Source of the DNA: Planctomycetota bacterium
GTDB lineage: Bacteria > Planctomycetota > UBA8742 > UBA2392
Direction: 5' to 3'
Length of the DNA stretch: 64,000 nt
NCBI GenBank assembly: GCA_020849795.1
Contig: JADZFR010000037.1
Span: forward strand, 1 to 64,000
Under the pieces are notes generated by a model. The model had not been told where the DNA came from and made no database searches. It was given only the letters and a program-made list of their open reading frames with translations. The position numbers and the translations under genes are program-made. Each line of letters begins with the position of its first letter. Position 1 is the stretch's first letter. Shown here one piece after another: positions 216-8,012 of the stretch.

Positions 216-246
216 TGGAATCTGTAGTTTGCTATGGTTGTTCCCT
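216..246 (+). promoter_or_regulatory. Putative autoregulatory MerR operator upstream of merR
   Basis: Bases 222-237 read CTGTAGTTTGCTATGG, which matches the spacer dyads of the two better promoters in this locus (783-813 and 5451-5481) at the shared C.GTA....GCTA...G positions. A -10-like TATGGT (233-238) with an upstream TTCCAT (211-216) overlaps it, 20-30 nt before the merR start. MerR proteins usually bind their own promoter. The -35/-10 assignment is weak, and the site is called mainly from its similarity to the other two. Confidence 0.4.
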
Positions 247-260
247 ACGTGGAGGCTGCC

Positions 261-674
261 ATGTCGATGACTGTGGGCGCGCTTGCCAAGAAAGCCGGGA
301 TCAACCTTGAAACCGTGCGCTTCTATGAAAAGCAGAAGCTGCTGCCTGACCCTGAACGCACCAGCGGCGGGCATCGCCTGTACTCGGACGCGGACGTTGA
401 GCGGCTGCGCTTTATCCAGTCGGCCAAGGCGGTCGGCTTTACGCTGAAAGAGATTCGCGCGCTGGCGCGCTTTCGTGAAGAAGACCCGGGCGAGTCCTGC
501 GACGACGTGATGGAGTTGGGCCGACGCAAGCTCGCTGAAATTGAAATCAAGCTGCGCGAGCTGCAGACGATTCGCAAAATGCTGGCGGGGTTCATTGCCG
601 CATGCCCCGAAGACGACCTCGGGCACTGCCAGGTGCTTGCGGGCATCGAGAAGGCCACCGGCGCAAAATCCTGA
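261..674 (+). CDS. MerR-family metal-responsive transcriptional regulator
   Basis: A 137-residue MerR-family activator: an N-terminal winged-helix DNA-binding domain (about residues 4-70, with the typical ETVRFYE and GHRLYSD motifs), then a long dimerisation helix and a C-terminal metal-binding loop. Cysteines lie at C80, C115 and C123. The loop ACPEDDLGHC has seven residues between its cysteines, like the copper sensor CueR. C80 corresponds to the position that is Ser in CueR and Cys in divalent-metal sensors such as ZntR and MerR. The start is the ATG at 261 with GGAGG at 251-255; an upstream in-frame start at 234 is less likely. It probably controls its own gene, the exporter operon starting at 833 and the operon starting at 5498, because related dyads precede all three. 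The inducing metal cannot be read from sequence; Hg, Cd, Pb or Zn are more likely than Cu(I). Confidence 0.9.
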   Translation: MSMTVGALAKKAGINLETVRFYEKQKLLPDPERTSGGHRLYSDADVERLRFIQSAKAVGFTLKEIRALARFREEDPGESCDDVMELGRRKLAEIEIKLRELQTIRKMLAGFIAACPEDDLGHCQVLAGIEKATGAKS

Positions 675-782
675 ACTGCTCGATGCGCTGCCCGCCTGCG
701 GACCGGCGTAAAGCTGTTGCCATGCCCGGATGAGCGCCATGCCGGCCTGAACCAAAGCAGACAAATATGTACTGATATGCGC

Positions 783-813
783 TTGCGTCCGTAGTACGCT
801 ACGGGTCCACAAT
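783..813 (+). promoter_or_regulatory. MerR-type promoter P1 of the exporter operon
   Basis: TTGCGT (783-788) and CACAAT (808-813) are separated by 19 bp, the overlong spacer typical of MerR-activated promoters. The spacer holds a perfect dyad, CCGTAG-TACG-CTACGG (789-804), with the same architecture as the mer operator (6-bp arms, 4-bp centre). A GGAG at 822-825 and the ATG at 833 follow directly. The spacer is identical at 12 of 19 positions to that of the promoter at 5451-5481. Confidence 0.7.
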
Positions 814-832
814 TCGGGCGCGGAGCAAGGCT

Positions 833-2356
833 ATGGCCTTTGATCTTGACCAATTGCGCCTGGACATCCCACCCGAGGAGTATTCGTCCGCGGGGGGCGT
901 ACGCCCCTTCTGGCGGGCCGCGGCCCTGGCGCTGCTTGCCGCATGTGTCGGGCTGGCTGCCTGGCATGTGATTGCGCCCGCACCAGACACGGGCGCGGTG
1001 ATGGTTCCGGTGCAGGTCGTTGCGCCCCAGCCCGGCAGCGAATTGACCGCGTTTACCGCAGGCGGATGGGTTGAGCCGGCTTGGCCCTGCCCGGTCATCA
1101 TCAGCGCCGAGCTGGATGGCCGGCTTGACAAACTTGAGGTCGTCGAAGGCCAGACCCTGAAGCAGGGTGACTTGATTGCAGTGTTGAACAACCTGCCCCA
1201 TCGGCAGGAACTGCTGGCCGCCGATGCGGCGGTGGCAGAGGCCGAAGCGAATGTGGAGGCGGCGGAAGCCGCACTGGCACGCCTGCGCGCTGGCGCCCGC
1301 CCCGAAGAAGTTGAAGTGGCCAACGCCGAGTTGCAGCACGCGCAATCACAACTGGCACTGCTGGAAGCCGGCTATCGCGCCGAGGAAGTGGCAGTGGCCG
1401 CAGCCAACCTGCGGGCGGCGCGCGCGTCGGCCGAGCAACTGCAGCGTGAAGCCGACCGCACCGCGAACCTGAGCCGGCAGCAACTGCTGGCGCCATCGAT
1501 CGCTGACCGCGACCGCGCCGCGGCCGAAGCGTCACAGGCCCGCACGGCTGCACTGGAGGCGGAGTACGCGCGCATGTCGGCAGGCCCGCGGCCCCAGGAG
1601 ATTGCACAGGCCCGCGCCGCGGTGCAGGTGGCGCAGGCCCGGCTGGCGCTGGTACAGGCCGGTTTCCGCGCCGAAGAAAAGACCGAAGCATCCGCCGTGC
1701 TGGACGCCACGCAGGCCGTGCTTGAGGCGGCAGAGGCCCGACAGGCGGCCGCCAAGCGCGACGTGGGTTTCTGCATGGTACGGGCACCGTTTGCAGGCGT
1801 GGTGCTGGACGTAGTGTCGGCGCAGGGCTCGTGGCTGCACGGTGAGAAGCGCGGCATCGTGCGCATGTACGACCCGGCGCGCATGCAGGCACGGGTCGAT
1901 GTAAGGCAGGAAAACGCGGCGTTGCTGGTCACGGGCCGTGCCTGCCTGGTGAAGCTGGAATCACGCAAGGACCGGCCTTACGCGGGCCGGGTGACGCGCA
2001 TGGACCCGCAGGGCAACCTGGCGCGCGACACCGTGAGAGTCCGCGTCGAAATCACCGAACCCGACGAACTGTTGCGGATCGACCTGACCGTGACCGTGGA
2101 CTTCCTGGTGCCGGAAGCTGAGCCCGCAAAGAGGCCGCTGGTAGTGCCTGCGGCGGCGGTGATCCAGCGCGACGGCCGGTACCATGTGTTTGCGGTGCGC
2201 GGCGGCCAGGCGCACCTGCTCAGCCCGGAGCTTGGCGCCCAGACGCCTACGGGTTATGTCGTGGTCTCCGGCCTTGAGGCGGGCGAGGTCGTGGCCACAG
2301 GCAACCTTGCCATGTTGTCCGAAGGCACAGTGGTGCGCATCGAGGGCGAGCCATGA
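833..2356 (+). CDS. HlyD/MacA-like periplasmic adaptor (membrane fusion protein) of an ABC exporter
   Basis: A 507-residue membrane fusion protein. It has a short cytoplasmic N-terminus, one transmembrane helix (about 28-46), a split biotinyl-lipoyl domain (before and after the hairpin) and a very long alpha-helical coiled coil (about 125-310). The coiled coil contains several copies of a heptad-like block that includes AGxRxEE. Beta-barrel and membrane-proximal domains form the C-terminal part (about 320-505). Such adaptors link an inner-membrane ABC transporter to an outer-membrane exit duct. It starts the operon behind the MerR-type promoter, and its stop overlaps the ATPase start by 4 nt (ATGA), so the two are translationally coupled. 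By analogy it is the MacA/DevB partner of the ATPase and permeases that follow. Confidence 0.88.
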   Translation: MAFDLDQLRLDIPPEEYSSAGGVRPFWRAAALALLAACVGLAAWHVIAPAPDTGAVMVPVQVVAPQPGSELTAFTAGGWVEPAWPCPVIISAELDGRLDKLEVVEGQTLKQGDLIAVLNNLPHRQELLAADAAVAEAEANVEAAEAALARLRAGARPEEVEVANAELQHAQSQLALLEAGYRAEEVAVAAANLRAARASAEQLQREADRTANLSRQQLLAPSIADRDRAAAEASQARTAALEAEYARMSAGPRPQEIAQARAAVQVAQARLALVQAGFRAEEKTEASAVLDATQAVLEAAEARQAAAKRDVGFCMVRAPFAGVVLDVVSAQGSWLHGEKRGIVRMYDPARMQARVDVRQENAALLVTGRACLVKLESRKDRPYAGRVTRMDPQGNLARDTVRVRVEITEPDELLRIDLTVTVDFLVPEAEPAKRPLVVPAAAVIQRDGRYHVFAVRGGQAHLLSPELGAQTPTGYVVVSGLEAGEVVATGNLAMLSEGTVVRIEGEP

Positions 2357-3060
2357 GCTTTGTCCGCATCCGCGAGCTGCGAAAGACCTACGACACCGGC
2401 GAAAGCCGCGTGACGCCGCTGGACGGGATTGACCTGGACATTGCAGCCGGCGAGTTTCTGTGCCTGATGGGGCCGTCGGGCTCAGGCAAGACCACGCTGC
2501 TGAACATCGTGGCTGGCATTGACCGACAGACCTCAGGCAGTGTGCGCGTCGGCGACGTGGAACTGAGCCGCCTGAGCGATTCGCAGCTCAGCCGCTGGCG
2601 CAATCGCAACATGGGCTATGTGTTTCAGCAGTTCAACCTGGTGCCGGTGTTGAACGCCCTGGAAAACGTGGAATTGCCGTTGATGCTGCTGCCGTTGTCG
2701 GCGCGCCGGCGTCGCCGGCAGGCCGAGCTCGCGCTGGCGGCGGTCGGGCTGTCGGATCGCGTGAAGCACTACCCGCGCCAGCTTTCGGGCGGCCAGCAAC
2801 AGCGGGTGGCGATTGCGCGCGCGATTGTAACCGACCCATCCGTCATTGCGGCCGACGAGCCCACGGGCAACCTCGACGCCCAGTCCGGCGAAGAAGTGTT
2901 GCGCCTTCTGTCTGAGCTGAACCGGCGCTTCAAGAAGACAGTCATCCTGGTCACGCACGACCCGCGCGCTGCGGCAACCGCACAGCGCATTCTGCACCTG
3001 GACAAGGGCGTGCTGCACGAAAGCGGTACCCTGCAAGTAGAAGTGGAGGCCGGCACATGA
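2353..3060 (+). CDS. ABC transporter ATPase, MacB/LolD type
   Basis: A 235-residue ABC ATPase of the LolD/MacB/DevA class. Walker A is GPSGSGKTT (40-48), a Q-loop follows in VFQQFNLVP, the signature is LSGGQQQR (about 144-151), and Walker B with the catalytic glutamate reads [11 protein letters not shown]. An H-loop histidine lies in LVTHDPR. It powers the two FtsX-like permeases encoded next. It overlaps both its upstream neighbour and the first permease by 4 nt (ATGA at each junction), so subunit stoichiometry is probably set by translational coupling. There is nothing unusual in the motifs. Confidence 0.94.
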
Positions 3061-4199
3061 AGTACCTTCGCATGGCTCTGCGCAACATGAAAAGCAACCG
3101 CATGCGCACGCTGCTGACACTGCTGGGTGTGGCGGTGGCCGTGTTCGTGTTCGCGTTTTTTGAAAGCACGCGGCACACCATGCGCAACGTGGTGACGGAG
3201 GCCGCCAAAGACAACAACCTGGTGGTGATGAAAGAGAACACCTGGTGACCGACGCAAAGTGAACTGCCGGCGAGTTACGCCGCGAACATAGCCGAGTTGC
3301 CGCAGGTCGATGACGTGATGCCGGTCTACATCTCCACGACCGCCTGCTGAAGTTTTGAACCGGACACGGTCATTGTCCACGGCGTGGACAAACAGAAATT
3401 CCAGAAGTTCCGCTCGTACAACCTGACGTCAGGAAGCATGGACGAGTTCATGGCCGCCCGCGATGGCGCGCTGGTCGGCGCCAGCGTCGCGGCGCGCAAG
3501 GGCTGGACGCCGGGCCGCACCATCGACCTGCGCGCGCAACTTGGCCTGCTGATGGAGGTCAAGGGCGTGTTTTCGTCCGGCAACGAAGAGCAGGACAACA
3601 CCATCCTGGCCGACCTTGAGTTCGTGCAGGACCAGTACGACGCCCGCGGCAAAGCCAACCAGCTGCTCGTGAAAGTTGCGCCCGGCGGCAACGCCGACCA
3701 GCTTGCCGGCCAGATCGACGCGCTGGCGCTGCCCACGCGCACCAGCACCCAGCCTGAAAAGGCGTTTCTGCAGGGCATGCTGGAAGACTTGTCCGACCTG
3801 GTGCTGCTGGCCTCGCTGGTCGTTGCCGTCACGCTGATTGTGGTCTTCATCGGCGTGGCCAACACGATGGCGATGGCGGTGCGCGATCGCGTACGGCAGA
3901 TCGGCGTGCTGCGCACGTTGGGCTTCAACCGCCTGCGCATCATGCTGCTGATATTTCTTGAGTCCGCGGTGTTGTGCGCCGCGGGCGGAGTGCTGGGCAG
4001 CGCCGCGGCGTGGGTCGTGCTGAACGTGCAGCAGGTTTCGGTCCAGTCACGAACGCTCAACCTGGTCATCTCGATGCCGTGGCAGGTTGCGGCGGCGGGA
4101 GTGGCCGTGGCCGTGCTGGTCGGTGTCGCGGGCGCGGTGCTTCCGGCCTGGCGCGCGGCACGCATGAACATTGTGCAGTCACTGGGAAGCGTGGGCTGA
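3057..4199 (+). CDS. FtsX/MacB-like ABC permease with two in-frame UGA codons (candidate selenoprotein)
   Basis: The reading frame from 3057 runs to the stop at 4197-4199 (380 codons) and is interrupted only by TGA at 3246-3248 (codon 64) and 3348-3350 (codon 98). Between and after them the translation stays typical of a FtsX-like permease: TM1 about 17-36, then a periplasmic domain, then three C-terminal TMs (about 250-275, 295-323 and 341-365). The contexts are NTW-UGA-PTQ and TAC-UGA-SFE, the second UGA directly after a cysteine. From memory, homologous permeases carry conserved cysteines in FCP and NNC motifs at these two places, so Sec replacing Cys is the best reading; this needs an alignment. 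SECIS-like hairpins follow each UGA. The alternatives are a decayed gene or sequencing error, but the frame, the codon use and the intact 4-nt overlap upstream and 1-nt overlap downstream argue against decay. Confidence 0.75.
3268..3282 (+). promoter_or_regulatory. Candidate bacterial SECIS for UGA codon 64 of the permease
   Basis: CGGCG-AGTTA-CGCCG forms a 5-bp GC stem with a 5-nt loop that has G at its second position. The loop begins 24 nt after the UGA at 3246-3248, inside the usual 16-37 nt window for bacterial SECIS elements. The stem is short and the region is GC-rich, so a chance hairpin is possible. Confidence 0.4.
3373..3391 (+). promoter_or_regulatory. Candidate bacterial SECIS for UGA codon 98 of the permease
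   Basis: TTGTCCAC-GGC-GTGGACAA forms a perfect 8-bp stem with a GGC apical loop. The loop starts 30 nt after the UGA at 3348-3350. Stem length, distance and a guanine at the start of the loop all fit the bacterial SECIS rules. This is one of the two best SECIS candidates in the locus. Confidence 0.5.
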
Positions 4200-5350
4200 T
4201 GCGGCTGCCGCTGCGCTATTCGGTTCGCAACCTGATGCGCCGCAAAGTGCGCACTCTGCTGACCGTGCTGGCGATCGCGCTGGCGGTGGGCATCAGCGTG
4301 GGGTTGTTCGCGTTCGCGCGCGGCGTGATCGCCGCAGCACGCGACTCGGGCTCGGACCAGAATGTCCTGATCATTGACCGCAAGGCCGCCAACGCATCGT
4401 TTTCCAGCATCCGGCTGGCCGACTTCAACCTGCTTAAAAGCCTGCCGCAGGTAGCGCGCGACCCCGACGGCAATGCCCTGCTGTCGCCGGAAGTGGTTCA
4501 CCAATGCCGGGTGCAGGCGGGCGAACAACCCAATGGCGCCGGCACGGTGCGCGGCGTGTCGCCGCAAGTGTTCGCGGTCAACCCGCGTTTGCGCATGCTG
4601 GAAGGCAGTCCCCCGTCCAGCGGGCGGCAGGTTGCCGTGGGCGAGCTGGCGGCAGCGGCGCTGCGCGTACCGCACGAGCTGCTGGCGATCGGCCGGCAAA
4701 TCCGGTTCGAGGGCGAAACCTGGGAAATCGTGGGGCGCTTCTCAACCGGCGGCAGCGCCATGGACGGCGAGATACTGGCCAGCGTCGGCGAACTGATGGC
4801 GGTGCTGAACCGTGACACCTACTCATGCGTGGTCGCCACCGCGGCCAGCCGCGCCGACGTGGCGCCGATGGTCAAGGCCCTCAACAGCCGCAACGACATC
4901 CAGTTCAAGGCCGTCGTCGAGACCGAGTACTACCGCTCGCTGGCCGACGGCTACCAGCGCGTAATCGCGCTGGTGCTGCTGGTCTCGGTCATGGCCACGG
5001 CGGGCGGGCTGGTGAGCGGCTTGAACACGATGTACGCGTCGGTGATGGGGCGGCTTCGCGAGATCGGCACGCTGAAGGTGATGGGTTTCAGCAACGGAAC
5101 GATCCTGGGCTCATTCATGGTCGAGTCGATGGTGCTGGCATTGCTGGGCGCGGTGCTGGGGTGCGCGCTGGCGCTGCCCGTTGACGGCATGGGCGCGCGC
5201 TTCACGTCGTCGGCGCTGCGCGTTTCCATCGACTTCTGGGCAGTCGCCGGGGGCGCCGTCGTCGCAATGGTTATTGGTGTGGCGGGCGCCCTGGCCGCCG
5301 CGATGGGCGGCCTGCGCATGTCGATCATTGGCGCGCTGAACGCCCACTGA
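4199..5350 (+). CDS. FtsX/MacB-like ABC permease, second subunit
   Basis: A 383-residue FtsX-like permease: N-terminal TM (about 17-42), a large periplasmic domain, and three C-terminal TMs that include the conserved MGRLREIGTLKVMG coupling region after TM2. Its ATG at 4199 overlaps the stop of the first permease by one base (TGATG). A heterodimer with the first permease, served by one ATPase, is likely. Unlike the first permease it contains no internal UGA. It has a cysteine at residue 103 in the periplasmic domain. The longer reading frame starting at 3974 is an artefact of overlap with the first permease. Confidence 0.9.
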   Translation: MRLPLRYSVRNLMRRKVRTLLTVLAIALAVGISVGLFAFARGVIAAARDSGSDQNVLIIDRKAANASFSSIRLADFNLLKSLPQVARDPDGNALLSPEVVHQCRVQAGEQPNGAGTVRGVSPQVFAVNPRLRMLEGSPPSSGRQVAVGELAAAALRVPHELLAIGRQIRFEGETWEIVGRFSTGGSAMDGEILASVGELMAVLNRDTYSCVVATAASRADVAPMVKALNSRNDIQFKAVVETEYYRSLADGYQRVIALVLLVSVMATAGGLVSGLNTMYASVMGRLREIGTLKVMGFSNGTILGSFMVESMVLALLGAVLGCALALPVDGMGARFTSSALRVSIDFWAVAGGAVVAMVIGVAGALAAAMGGLRMSIIGALNAH

Positions 5351-5356
5351 CGCGCC

Positions 5357-5378
5357 CGCACCCCGATCCGTGGGTGCG
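5357..5378 (+). terminator. GC hairpin after the exporter operon, possible terminator
   Basis: CGCACCC (5357-5363) pairs with GGGTGCG (5372-5378) around an 8-nt loop, 6 nt after the second permease stop. There is no T-run after it, so it is at best a weak or Rho-assisted terminator. It separates the exporter operon from the next promoter (5451-5481). Confidence 0.35.
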
Positions 5379-5450
5379 CACACACCGTTTCGCACCTTGC
5401 CGGGTGCTTGCGTGCCTCAAGACACCTCCAGCGAAAAATCGTGTACGCCC

Positions 5451-5481
5451 TTGAACCTGTACCTTGCTACAGGCCTAGTCT
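5451..5481 (+). promoter_or_regulatory. MerR-type promoter P2 of the barrel/HMA operon
   Basis: TTGAAC (5451-5456) and TAGTCT (5476-5481) lie 19 bp apart. The spacer carries the dyad CCTGTA-CCTTGC-TACAGG (5456-5473), whose CCTTGC centre resembles CueR operators. Aligned from the -35, the 19-bp spacer agrees with that of promoter 783-813 at 12 positions, including GTA and GCTAC. This indicates control by the same MerR-family protein encoded at 261-674. GGAGG (5488-5492) and the GTG start at 5498 follow. Confidence 0.65.
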
Positions 5482-5497
5482 ACGCCCGGAGGCCATT

Positions 5498-6403
5498 GTG
5501 AAGCTGTTGCTCTGCTGAGTCTTGTTGCTTCTTGCGGCCGTGATGCCGATGACGCTTTCCGCCCACAACACCCTGTTCGGTGACGCGCCGCGCACGATCT
5601 GGCGCAATGGCCTTGAAATCGAAGCCGACACCAAGTGGGAGTTGCACAAGCGCTTCTTTCTGCAGGACTCGAGTATCGGCAACCCGAACGACACGCGCGT
5701 GCAGGTCTGGACGTGGAGCTTCGGGCTGACTTACGGCATTACGCGCGACTTCTCGATGCGCGTGCACATCCCCGTGGGCTATGCCGTGCGGCGCAGCAAG
5801 AACACTGACCTGAACGACCATTACTTCGGCCTGAAAGACATTGGCGTCGGGTTCAAGTACCGTCTGTACAACGAGCCGCAGCCGGGGGGCAGCTTCCAGG
5901 GCGGCGTGTTTCTGGATTTTGAGCTGCCGACGGCGCAGGACCGCGGGCCTGTCGGGCTGCTGAGCCCGAAGCTCTCGTTCGGCGATGAGTCTTTACGCGT
6001 CAAGGGCGGCGCGACATGGTCGTTCAGCACCACGCGTCACTACTTCTGGCTCGATATCGCGGCCAGTGTCGGCACGCTGAGTGACGGGCGCATCAAGGGG
6101 CCGAGTATCAACTTTCACCCGGCGTACGCGGTGCGGGTGTTCGAACTGACTGACTACCGCGAGTTCGACATGATTCTGCTGTTTGAAGGCGACGTTGAAT
6201 TTGTCGAGCGCATGTGGATGCATCGCAAGCGCGTCGTGCCCTCGGGCTATTACAAGTTTCACCTCGGGTTCGGCATCCAGATGAACATCACCAACTACGT
6301 GGAAGTAAAACTCGGGTACGAGTACCCGATTTACCAGTACTACTTTGCGCCAACCTATGTGCATGAAGGCGAGGCCAAAATCAGCTTCAACTACCTGTTC
6401 TAG
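5498..6403 (+). CDS. Outer-membrane beta-barrel protein with an in-frame UGA in its signal peptide (candidate selenoprotein)
   Basis: From a GTG at 5498, perfectly placed behind GGAGG (5488-5492), the frame encodes 301 codons with one internal TGA at 5516-5518 (codon 7, directly after Cys6). The N-terminus then reads as a normal signal peptide (VLLLLAAVMPMTLSA, cleaved near codon 22). The rest is rich in alternating amphipathic, aromatic beta strands and ends in NYLF, a typical outer-membrane barrel terminus. I do not recognise a specific family. It may be the outer-membrane component serving the neighbouring exporter. Because the UGA lies in a peptide that would be removed, Sec here could gate synthesis on selenium supply rather than bind metal. 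Alternatively, translation restarts at TTG 5522 or ATG 5543 and the first seven codons are a leader peptide. Confidence 0.7.
5535..5548 (+). promoter_or_regulatory. Weak SECIS-like hairpin after UGA codon 7
   Basis: CGGC-CGTGAT-GCCG is a 4-bp stem with a 6-nt loop carrying G at position 2. The loop starts 20 nt after the UGA at 5516-5518. It meets the minimum geometry for a bacterial SECIS, but the stem is marginal. Confidence 0.25.
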
Positions 6404-6412
6404 GATTGAGCC

Positions 6413-6853
6413 ATGAGAATATTCGCGGCAATCCTCGGTATGGCCGTGCTGGTGCTTGCCGGCTGCAAGAGCCAGTACTGGGTCTGGGCCGAGAAAGACG
6501 AGCCGATCATCGCGGCGAACAACACGCCGCGGGTCGAGCCCCAGCCTGACGATCCCGAACCAGAACCGGAACCGCAGGCGCCGAAAGAGATCATCTTTGT
6601 GCTCGGCATCGACGGCATGGACTGAGGCCAGTGAGCGACGGGCGTCATGGACGCCTTTCGTGCCCGGTCGGGCATCAAAGATGCAAAGACGGATATCACC
6701 AAGGCTGAGGTCTACCTGCTGGCCGAGCCGAACGCAGACCTGACCGCCGCCATCGTCAAGACGATGATGGAAGAGGAATACGGTTATGGCTTCCGCTCGT
6801 TCGAGATTGTAAAGGACAAGCGGTGGTCGGATTTTGGCGACGCCAAGCGCTAG
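6413..6853 (+). CDS. Lipoprotein with an HMA domain whose CxxC is encoded as UxxU (two in-frame UGA codons)
   Basis: The frame from ATG 6413 to TAG 6853 (146 codons) contains TGA only at 6623-6625 (codon 71) and 6632-6634 (codon 74). The N-terminus is a lipoprotein signal with lipobox VLAGC (Cys18), followed by an acidic Pro/Glu linker and then an HMA fold. The metal-loop region reads GIDGMD-UGA-GQ-UGA-ATGV, which superimposes on the canonical GMxCxxC motif; the next gene has SIEGMMCGNCVASV at the same place. Both metal-ligand cysteines are therefore UGA-encoded, most simply selenocysteine. The fold continues normally afterwards (MDAFRARSGIKDAKT, then beta strands). Function: periplasmic soft-metal binding or transfer, probably feeding the neighbouring transporter. 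It lies 9 nt after the barrel gene. Two hairpins directly downstream of the UGAs fit SECIS elements. Confidence 0.85.
6641..6655 (+). promoter_or_regulatory. Candidate SECIS hairpin A of the UxxU gene
   Basis: GGCGTC-ATG-GACGCC is a perfect 6-bp stem (7 with a G-T pair). Its loop begins 21 nt after the first UGA (6623-6625) and 12 nt after the second. The geometry suits the first UGA, but the ATG loop lacks G in its first two positions, which the usual rule asks for. Confidence 0.3.
6661..6674 (+). promoter_or_regulatory. Candidate SECIS hairpin B of the UxxU gene, GGTC loop
   Basis: TGCCC-GGTC-GGGCA forms a 5-bp GC stem with a GGTC loop, close to the GGTCT apical loop of the E. coli fdhF SECIS. 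The loop starts 31 nt after the second UGA (6632-6634) and 40 nt after the first. It is the best sequence match to a known SelB-binding loop in the window. Confidence 0.5.
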
Positions 6854-6876
6854 AACAACTTGTCAGGAGACATCCC

Positions 6877-7230
6877 ATGAAATCGCTGATTGCCGTCTGC
6901 TTGATCGCGCTCACGCTTGCCGCGTGCGGCGATGCCACGATCGATCAACCCCAGCCCGAAGCTGCCAAGCCGATTGAGCAACCCAAGCCGGAGGCACAGG
7001 CCATGAACTACGAGATGTCCATCGAGGGCATGATGTGCGGCAACTGCGTCGCCAGCGTGAAGAAGACGCTTGAAGCCCAGCCCGGCGTTGCCAGCGCCGA
7101 CGTCAACCTTGAAAAGAAGCTGGCCACAATCCACGTCAAGCCCGGCGCCAAGTTTGACCATGCTGCAGCGACCGCCGCCGTGAACAAGGACTTTGAGGTC
7201 AAATCCTGCGCCCCGGTCGCCGCGCACTAG
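6877..7230 (+). CDS. HMA-domain lipoprotein with canonical GMxCxxC motif
   Basis: A 117-residue lipoprotein: signal peptide with lipobox LAAC (Cys17), a Pro/Glu/Gln linker, then a heavy-metal-associated domain (about 43-110) with GMMCGNC (Cys54 and Cys57). An extra cysteine is present near the C-terminus (KSCAP). HMA domains bind Cu(I), Hg(II) or other soft metals through the CxxC pair. It follows the UxxU protein by 23 nt with a good AGGAGA site, and looks like its cysteine paralogue. The two probably act in the same periplasmic metal relay. Its stop overlaps that of the convergent surE. Confidence 0.92.
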   Translation: MKSLIAVCLIALTLAACGDATIDQPQPEAAKPIEQPKPEAQAMNYEMSIEGMMCGNCVASVKKTLEAQPGVASADVNLEKKLATIHVKPGAKFDHAAATAAVNKDFEVKSCAPVAAH

Positions 7231-8012
7231 GGTTTGAAGCTGTCGAACGCCGCTTTTACGCCCGGTTCGTTCATGTTGCTTACGTCATAGCGCAGCGGCG
7301 TGATGCTGATATAGCCGTCGCGAACCGCCACCGTGTCCAGCTCAGGGTCAGTGTGTTTCTCGCGCTGGGCTTTCACGTCGTCCCAGACGGGCCAGAAGTA
7401 GCGGCGACCGTCAGGGCTTTTGCGCTCTTCAAAGTTGTCGCCCTTGACCACCGGGTTCTGGCGCGTGATGCGCGCGCCCTTGATCTGCTCGGCCTCAAGG
7501 GGCGGCAGGTTGATGTTGTACAGCCAGTCCGGGCGCGAGTGCGGCGCCGCCATCAGCGTGCGCACGATCTGGGCCACCAGCTGGTCCAGTGCGCCCCACT
7601 CAATGGCGCCGTCCCAGCGGCAATAGCTGAAGGCAATGCTCGGCACGCCGAAGCTGTGCGCCTCGGCGGCTGCACCCACGGTGCCGGAAAAGAAGATGTT
7701 CCAGCCCAGGTTGCCGCCGTGGTTGATGCCCGAAAGGCACAGGTCCGGCAAGCCGCCCAGCAGCTTGATGCAGGCCAGCCGCACGCAGTCGCAGGGCGTG
7801 CCGTCCACGGCAATGCGCCGCGCCTCGCCGTGCGTGTGCGGCAACTCGCGTGCGAACACCGGCGAATGAATGGTAATCGCGTGGGCCTGGGCGCTGTGCT
7901 GGCGCTCAGGCGCGACGACGTACACGTCGCCGCCGATGCGCTGGGCCGCCCGCGTCAGCATTTCAATGCCGCGCGCGTCAATGCCGTCGTCGTTAGTGAC
8001 CAGGATGCGCAT
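7227..8012 (-). CDS. surE: 5'/3'-nucleotidase SurE
   Basis: A 261-residue SurE nucleotidase, which removes phosphate from nucleoside monophosphates in a metal-dependent reaction. The metal-binding TNDDG (Asp8, Asp9) starts the protein, followed by PERQHSA and the conserved SGINHGGNLGWNIFFSGTVG region that completes the active site. The length is normal. It converges on the HMA gene, and the two stop codons share the palindromic CTAG (7227-7230). It reads away from the metal locus and probably has no link to it. Confidence 0.95.
   Translation of the reverse strand: MRILVTNDDGIDARGIEMLTRAAQRIGGDVYVVAPERQHSAQAHAITIHSPVFARELPHTHGEARRIAVDGTPCDCVRLACIKLLGGLPDLCLSGINHGGNLGWNIFFSGTVGAAAEAHSFGVPSIAFSYCRWDGAIEWGALDQLVAQIVRTLMAAPHSRPDWLYNINLPPLEAEQIKGARITRQNPVVKGDNFEERKSPDGRRYFWPVWDDVKAQREKHTDPELDTVAVRDGYISITPLRYDVSNMNEPGVKAAFDSFKP

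Follow-up and report, generated by a model that had tools for sequence, protein, structure and literature searches.

A predicted selenocysteine-containing soft-metal efflux regulon under MerR-type control in a Planctomycetota bacterium

Gene content of the cluster

The window analyzed here is a stretch of 64,000 nucleotides (nt) from a Planctomycetota bacterium (assembly GCA_020849795.1, contig JADZFR010000037.1), and positions 216-7230 of it comprise a regulated gene cluster for a MerR-type regulator, a periplasmic adaptor, an ATPase, two permeases, an outer-membrane barrel and two HMA lipoproteins. All genes are located on the plus strand in the order merR, macA-ATPase-perm1-perm2 and omp-hma1-hma2, and three of them contain in-frame UGA codons, for which decoding as selenocysteine (Sec) is predicted. 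The gene identities are based on Pfam and NCBIfam profile matches, and the lipoboxes were judged by eye:

234-674, plus strand: merR, metal-type MerR regulator (TIGR02051, 119.5 bits; the alignable start is an ATG at about 261-267)
833-2356, plus strand: macA-like periplasmic adaptor of the HlyD/RND_mfp type (TIGR01730 above the cut-off; PF13437, PF16576)
2353-3060, plus strand: ATPase of an ATP-binding cassette (ABC) system, LolD/MacB/DevA type (PF00005; LolD and MacB models under the cut-off)
3057-4199, plus strand: permease 1, MacB/FtsX type, frame interrupted by UGA at codons 64 and 98 (PF12704, PF02687)
4199-5350, plus strand: permease 2, MacB/FtsX type, free of in-frame UGA (PF12704, PF02687)
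5498-6403, plus strand: omp, outer-membrane beta-barrel with a predicted signal peptide (GTG start after GGAGG; 32 public homologs)
6413-6853, plus strand: hma1, HMA lipoprotein with a UxxU motif (PF00403 above the cut-off; alignment of 14)
6877-7230, plus strand: hma2, HMA lipoprotein with the Cys motif MCGNC in the window (PF00403; UGA in four relatives)

An initial annotation, made from the sequence alone, had proposed a MerR regulator, a tripartite-like ABC exporter, a barrel and two HMA lipoproteins. The Pfam and NCBIfam matches agree with this gene content, for the barrel weakly, as its identity is taken from weak profile matches and a structure model only.

In-frame UGA codons and their predicted decoding

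The five in-frame UGA codons that had been described for three of the genes were confirmed. Together with two hairpins behind the hma1 codons, they are located as follows:

3246-3248, plus strand: UGA in permease 1, predicted Sec64 (W-U-PTQSELP), at a Cys that is invariant in the family
3348-3350, plus strand: UGA in permease 1, predicted Sec98, directly after the invariant Cys97 (C-U-SFEPD)
5516-5518, plus strand: UGA codon 7 of omp, within the signal peptide (VKLLLC-U-VLLLL)
6623-6634, plus strand: two UGAs of hma1 (starting at 6623 and 6632), predicted U71 and U74 (GMD-U-GQ-U), replacing the CxxC of HMA domains
6640-6656, plus strand: hairpin SL1, GGGCGUC-AUG-GACGCCU, 3' of the hma1 UGAs
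6662-6673, plus strand: hairpin SL2, GCCC-GGUC-GGGC in the genus of the window, its register shifted in comparison to relatives

The comparisons between genomes strongly support a reading of UGA as Sec in permease 1 and HMA1. For the signal peptide of OMP the support is weaker than for these two proteins, and Sec is probably inserted there as well.

A search for the Sec genes, suggested by the initial annotation, revealed selA, selB, selC and selD in the genome of the window. SelA reaches 537 bits (cut-off 268), SelB 334 bits (cut-off 242) and SelD 400 bits (cut-off 125), and a tRNA-Sec with the anticodon tca is present. The SelD gene of this genome itself carries an in-frame UGA (HGAG-U-GCKLS; C3:96412-97332). 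In a survey of 42 genomes (24 UGA-bearing, 16 with Cys-only permeases, plus G193 and G166), selA was above the cut-off in all 24 UGA-bearing genomes but in only five of the 16 Cys-only genomes, one of which barely passes (273.7 versus 267.9 bits). The p-value of this difference (Fisher, 1.9e-6) is too small, because the genomes are related and kinship was not corrected for. G193 possesses selA, and none of permease 1, omp and hma1 was matched in it. G166 possesses selA too and was later found to carry the hma1 UGAs, so that selA is present in 25 of 25 UGA-bearing genomes.

When read through its UGA codons, permease 1 was matched in 197 of 392 genomes of the phylum Planctomycetota (E 1e-20), and the UGAs sit at the same place in relatives of 30-94% identity. 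Ten of 16 family genomes possess the gene at E 1e-40, seven with two UGAs, two with one UGA and one cut by a contig end, and at least nine further genomes from other families have UGA-bearing matches. We aligned the permeases of 20 genomes, nine from the family without the contig-cut copy, nine from other families and two Cys controls. At the first site, U is present in 16 genomes and Cys in four (G104, G237, G181 and G360), where the UGA aligns with the Cys of FCPTSS.LP. At the second site, nine family genomes exhibit Cys-Sec and seven others Cys, and Sec replaces Cys in G223, G124, G011 and G033. When U is treated as C, an alignment of 28 sequences has 18 invariant columns, which include the two Cys columns. 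Homologs with Cys at the UGA positions, as looked for at the suggestion of the initial annotation, therefore exist for permease 1, whose relatives hold either Cys or UGA there. Codon 64 coincides with a family Cys, whereas codon 98 directly follows a Cys, resulting in Cys-Sec, and is not located at one. Among 137 public homologs of permease 1, all 28 with at least 47% identity among the 120 listed comprise 216-282 residues instead of 380, which is consistent with gene callers starting past the UGAs. The seven named records matched in the permease scan are all Planctomycetota metagenome-assembled genomes.

In hma1, GMD-U-GQ-U takes the place of the motif GMxCxxC of HMA proteins. Fourteen family genomes and G166 were found to possess the gene, and all 15 retain both UGAs. 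No Cys form of hma1 was detected among the 392 phylum genomes (E 1e-6), the remaining matches of this search being hma2 genes and a gene in G158. All five public HMA1 homologs, which are protein records only, end with ..IIFVLGIDGMD, one residue ahead of the first UGA; one public HMA1 fragment, used as a query against plasmids, gave no match. In three of the 14 family genes, UGA is both an internal codon and the final stop. HMA2 has UGA forms in G104 and G237 (GMT-U-AN-C), G120 (GMH-U-AN-C) and G047 (GMS-U-GM-U).

The UGAs break otherwise normal reading frames, as would be expected from frameshifts, gene decay or sequencing errors. However, identical codons are UGA in many separate genomes, and this conservation contradicts such an origin. 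A genome-wide reassignment of UGA, on the other hand, disagrees with the presence of tRNA-Sec and with the use of UGA as the ordinary stop codon of merR, macA, the ATPase gene and both permease genes, in line with what had been noted initially. Both explanations were ruled out and have, in our opinion, practically no chance of being correct. Neither a lack of Sec machinery nor frameshifts without conserved Cys or Sec, the two findings named beforehand as refuting, turned up.

The UGA in omp is in frame and real, as the initial annotation had stated, but it belongs to the predicted signal peptide and not to the mature barrel. The gene is present in 15 of 20 genomes of the class, 11 of which have a UGA in the signal peptide: at codon 7 in nine genomes (e.g. 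MRLLLR-U-LLILL and VKLLLC-U-VLLLL) and at codon 13 in G136 and G215. It is absent from G180, G047 and G256, and G166 is ambiguous, since UGA is codon 6 of one possible start. The complete homolog P0007 has a Cys at the UGA position (hand alignment; 22 of the 32 homologs read). Metal binding cannot explain a Sec in OMP, because the residue would leave with the signal peptide. The codon might rather be a selenium checkpoint on the first gene of the operon omp-hma1-hma2, since translation would stop at omp codon 7 without charged tRNA-Sec; selenium would never be part of the mature OMP, and the selenolate trap would be made only when selenium can complete it. We tentatively propose, with a confidence just short of even odds, that a Sec codon in a cleaved signal peptide is a pure translational selenium gate, which, combined with UxxU/UxxxU lipoproteins and a MacB-type exporter that contains Sec, would constitute a selenium-ligand efflux system.

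It is unlikely that the UGA in omp is a true stop, ending a short leader peptide or followed by a downstream start, without any Sec in the signal peptide. The position of the UGA near the start, the modest hairpin support and the many public OMP records that begin downstream of the UGA would fit this idea. However, a Shine-Dalgarno-like GGAGG and a start codon precede the UGA, and a start behind it would shorten the signal peptide too much, which is clearest for G136 and G215 with their UGA at codon 13. Moreover, homologs such as P0006, P0007 and P0014 possess complete signal peptides free of UGA.

Hairpins are found after the UGAs, and the covariance analysis, suggested by the initial annotation as a search for SECIS elements (selenocysteine insertion sequences), gave a clear covariation at hma1 and none that is clear elsewhere. 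In 13 distinct rows, 94.9% of the cells of the hma1 hairpins pair and three pairs are doubly changed. None of 500 shuffles reached the observed pairing, double-change cells or covariation score, whereas 61 of the 500 reached the count of doubly changed pairs and 341 the count of further pair types. RNAalifold independently recovers both stems, and the folding in comparison to synonymous recodings has a mean z of -1.52 (14 genomes). For permease 1 there is a trend towards stronger hairpins than in the Cys forms: the mean z at site 1 is -1.26 for U (n=16) and -0.30 for Cys (n=18; p 0.076), and at site 2 it is -0.59 (n=13) and 0.08 (n=16; p 0.050). For omp, most genomes allow a hairpin whose loop reads CGUG[CA]U or CGUGA, but this hairpin has only four pairs in the window, and the script chose a different hairpin in the window and in G120. 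The mean omp hairpin score of 8.70, versus 7.29 for recoded controls, was reached by 7 of 300. A search with Rfam resulted in no match within positions 3000-7300 of the window.

MerR-type control and the proposed route of the metal

Control by MerR, as put forward in the initial annotation, is supported by putative palindromic promoters before both macA and omp:

783-813, plus strand: MerR-type promoter before macA, TTGCGT, 19-nt spacer, palindrome CCGTAGTACGCTACGG (789-804), weak -10 CACAAT
5451-5481, plus strand: MerR-type promoter before omp, TTGAAC, 19-nt spacer CTGTACCTTGCTACAGGCC, TAGTCT

The perfect palindrome before macA occurs in the window and in G068. A promoter of the type TTGAA[CT]-19 nt-TA precedes omp in ten of 14 genomes and merR in the other four, and its GTA..TAC dyad is clean in nine of the ten omp promoters, G068 being the exception. 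If the omp spacer is instead read as 17 nt from the same -35, the score is equal or higher in several genomes. The pattern derived from the two window sites has two matches in the 64 kb and none in 100 shuffles. A looser dyad occurs at three places in the 3.97-Mb assembly, the two window sites and one inside an open frame (C52:57019), and the latter was therefore rejected as a promoter site.

The cluster had been regarded as a single regulated block. The exporter adjoins the other genes only in the genus of the window, and elsewhere in the family merR-omp-hma1-hma2 stands as a module of its own: in 13 of 14 family loci, merR immediately precedes omp in the same orientation, whereas the exporter intervenes in the window. 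In G068, the exporter lies ahead of merR. The exporter block (753-5354 of the window) is 85% identical to G068 at the DNA level and the adjacent omp-hma1 72%, with the order relative to merR swapped. This contrast hints at a recent movement or at a stronger constraint.

The 19-nt spacer palindromes resemble the mercury-MerR signal TCCGTAC-(4)-GTACGGA given in the consulted part of PMC1526738, where the signal of CueR is ACCTTCCC-(5)-TGGAAGGT and that of ZntR is ACTCTGGAGTCGACTCCAGAGT; the macA site deviates at its innermost bases. The excerpt of PMC11049809 gives CCGTACATGAGTACGG as the site of Tn501 MerR. Two Cys of the regulator align with Cys of Tn501 MerR (5crl), and the third lies beyond the aligned stretch. 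On the basis of the resemblance of the palindrome and of the two aligned Cys, mercury is favored as the metal, but not proven. The locus is no ordinary mer operon, a candidate rejected because no MerA above the cut-off was detected in 17 of 17 genomes.

This lack of MerA would also fit efflux of copper, silver, cadmium, lead or zinc by the same Sec proteins, as would the CopZ models among the best weak matches of HMA1 and the regulator being about equally near to the ZntR, CadR and CueR models as to MerR, under all cut-offs. In contrast, CCGTA(N6)TACGG resembles the mercury signal rather than those of CueR and ZntR, as far as these are covered by the cited part of PMC1526738. We therefore consider a metal other than mercury a serious candidate, although its chances are clearly below even.

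Taken together, the cluster most probably represents a MerR-controlled two-operon regulon with UGAs decoded as Sec, which likely serves to bind a soft metal in the periplasm, Hg(II) being the best candidate, and would export it from there. We assign a probability of roughly 70% to this reading, which agrees in its main features with the initial annotation and is supported by the Sec genes, the Cys or UGA of the homologs, the hairpins and the promoter palindromes. Metal-bound MerR would switch on the macA and omp promoters. The lipid-anchored HMA1 would hold the metal between the two selenolates of its UxxU motif, and HMA2 would do so with thiols. The metal would then pass from HMA1 to the Sec64 and Cys97-Sec98 site in the periplasmic domain of permease 1, and ATP hydrolysis would power its passage through the adaptor, from which it might leave by way of the barrel. 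The model of permease 1 (predicted local distance difference test score, pLDDT, 83.6) is nearest to the solved folds of MacB (5gko) and LolCDE, and its strand order suggests that the loops of Sec64 and Cys97/Sec98 share the same end of the sheet. In MacB 5gko, a Cys is missing from both aligned columns. The OMP model (pLDDT 87.2) resembles the COG4313 channel 4rl8 and FapF.

Instead of binding metal, the Sec/Cys pairs might do redox work by selenenylsulfide or diselenide switching. According to the accessible part of PMC13188914, a redox function is assumed for the majority of known selenoproteins, and the two conserved Cys/Sec sites of the permease could form a bond. However, the HMA fold with its metal motif, the metal-type MerR and the promoter palindrome argue against this explanation, which is quite improbable.

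Several observations weigh against the proposed soft-metal regulon. Permease 1 was unmatched in six of the 16 family genomes, and four genomes with omp have no clear UGA in the signal peptide. The rules for bacterial SECIS elements (bSECIS), used here as given in the seen part of PMC13188914, apply to 5 of 5 UGAs of the window, to 12 of 16 UGAs at the first permease site and 13 of 13 at the second, and to 28 of 28 in hma1. However, 378 of 534 control codons of permease genes and 90 of 168 control codons in the 5' parts of hma1 satisfy them too. Because of the 378 control codons, the rules alone were dropped as proof of Sec. The advantage of the permease hairpins over those of the Cys forms is only a trend. 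The stem at the first permease UGA of other genera (71.4% of cells pair, seven genomes) is broken in the genus of the window, and since the folding difference is only a trend, this hairpin was dropped as proof for that genus. The folding energy at omp is ordinary (mean z -0.35). MerR remains under the cut-offs of all metal-specific models, including TIGR02051 (150.85 bits), and is therefore said to work like MerR, not to be MerR. A search of the exporter loci of seven other family genomes revealed no such palindrome, so that shared control of exporter and module is claimed for the genus of the window only. The best weak model matches of HMA1 are to copper chaperones as well as to mercury proteins. 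Finally, the outward direction of transport and the transfer of the metal from HMA1 to permease 1 are inferred.

Relation to known systems

Sec-rich metal operons of the Sec-assisted organometallic (SAO) type and UxxU HMA proteins are already known. The 119 selenoprotein families of PMC13188914, as far as its consulted part shows, comprise SaoB, SaoC, SaoP, SaoX and SaoT, a cation ATPase and a Cu/Zn efflux transporter, as well as a putative mercuric transport protein, a UxxU metal-binding protein and two outer-membrane proteins. A permease of the MacB/FtsX type is not among them. MerP is listed in the selenoprotein table of PMC2398784, in the part of that source used here. The cluster shares with SAO (SaoB/C/P/X/T/L; same part of PMC13188914) a multi-selenoprotein operon, ABC subunits and the link to mercury or soft metals. 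It differs from SAO in its MacB/FtsX-type permease, HlyD adaptor, HMA lipoproteins and barrel, and neither permease matches the SaoP model NF040733 at E 0.01.

HMA1 has an HMA/CopZ domain in common with NF041115 (UxxU metal-binding protein) and NF045683 (MerT/CopZ fusion selenoprotein), and the two Sec of NF041115 are likewise arranged as UxxU. Ten of 14 HMA1 members match NF041115 at E 0.01. However, HMA1 is a longer lipoprotein that reaches 21.4 bits in comparison to a cut-off of 95, and some relatives have UxxxU.

The fold of permease 1, the ATPase and the adaptor type resemble MacAB-TolC and LolCDE, and MacB_PCD and FtsX domains, an ATPase and an HlyD-type adaptor are present according to Pfam. 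In contrast to these systems, the cluster encodes two separate permeases with Cys/Sec sites that are missing from MacB 5gko, and a roughly 12-stranded barrel in place of TolC. No TolC-type factor was found in the cluster, only the barrel resembling 4rl8 and FapF; the genome beyond the cluster was not searched for TolC.

Similarities to mer operons comprise the MerR-type regulator, the mercury-like promoter palindrome and the periplasmic HMA protein; exporter genes in place of MerA and Sec at the predicted metal sites set the cluster apart. Outer-membrane Sec proteins of the MtrB/PioB type (NF041027) and a TonB receptor (NF049945), described in the available part of PMC13188914, are also barrels read through UGA, whereas the UGA of omp belongs to the signal peptide. 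No NCBIfam model matched omp at E 0.01. Neither a Sec-containing MacB-type permease nor a bacterial Sec in a signal peptide was among the short result lists from the mostly non-subscription literature searched, which does not prove their absence from print.

If the proposed regulon is real, the role of Sec would extend from enzymes to metal trafficking, as a ligand in a periplasmic chaperone and in an ABC pump. The UGA in the signal peptide would represent a new use of Sec, namely a control of expression by the supply of selenium in place of a chemical role in the product. It becomes testable whether Sec is retained for soft-metal affinity or for redox rate. The public protein records examined from this lineage are cut at the UGAs.

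Some further observations concern related proteins. The Cys-form exporter operons of G181 and G360 contain genes for a Cys-rich small secreted protein, permease 2, a Cys-containing lipoprotein, the adaptor, the ATPase and permease 1. The small protein and the lipoprotein (PWDYCC) have no Pfam match and might be Cys-form partners; no named substrate is evident among the neighboring genes. G158, which belongs to another class of the phylum, encodes a tandem HMA protein on the minus strand (G158:C257, L112) with UGA in UxxC and UxxxC motifs at about 2295 and 2514. A second, unrelated Sec-containing HMA lipoprotein (U-G[ST]G-U, i.e. UxxxU) adjoins the exporter, divergent from macA, in three genomes:

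L051:11335-11721: UxxxU lipoprotein of G215
L054:576-968: UxxxU lipoprotein of G104
L055:10547-10939: UxxxU lipoprotein of G237

In the window, a gene that appears surE-like by eye (7227-8012, minus strand) follows the module.

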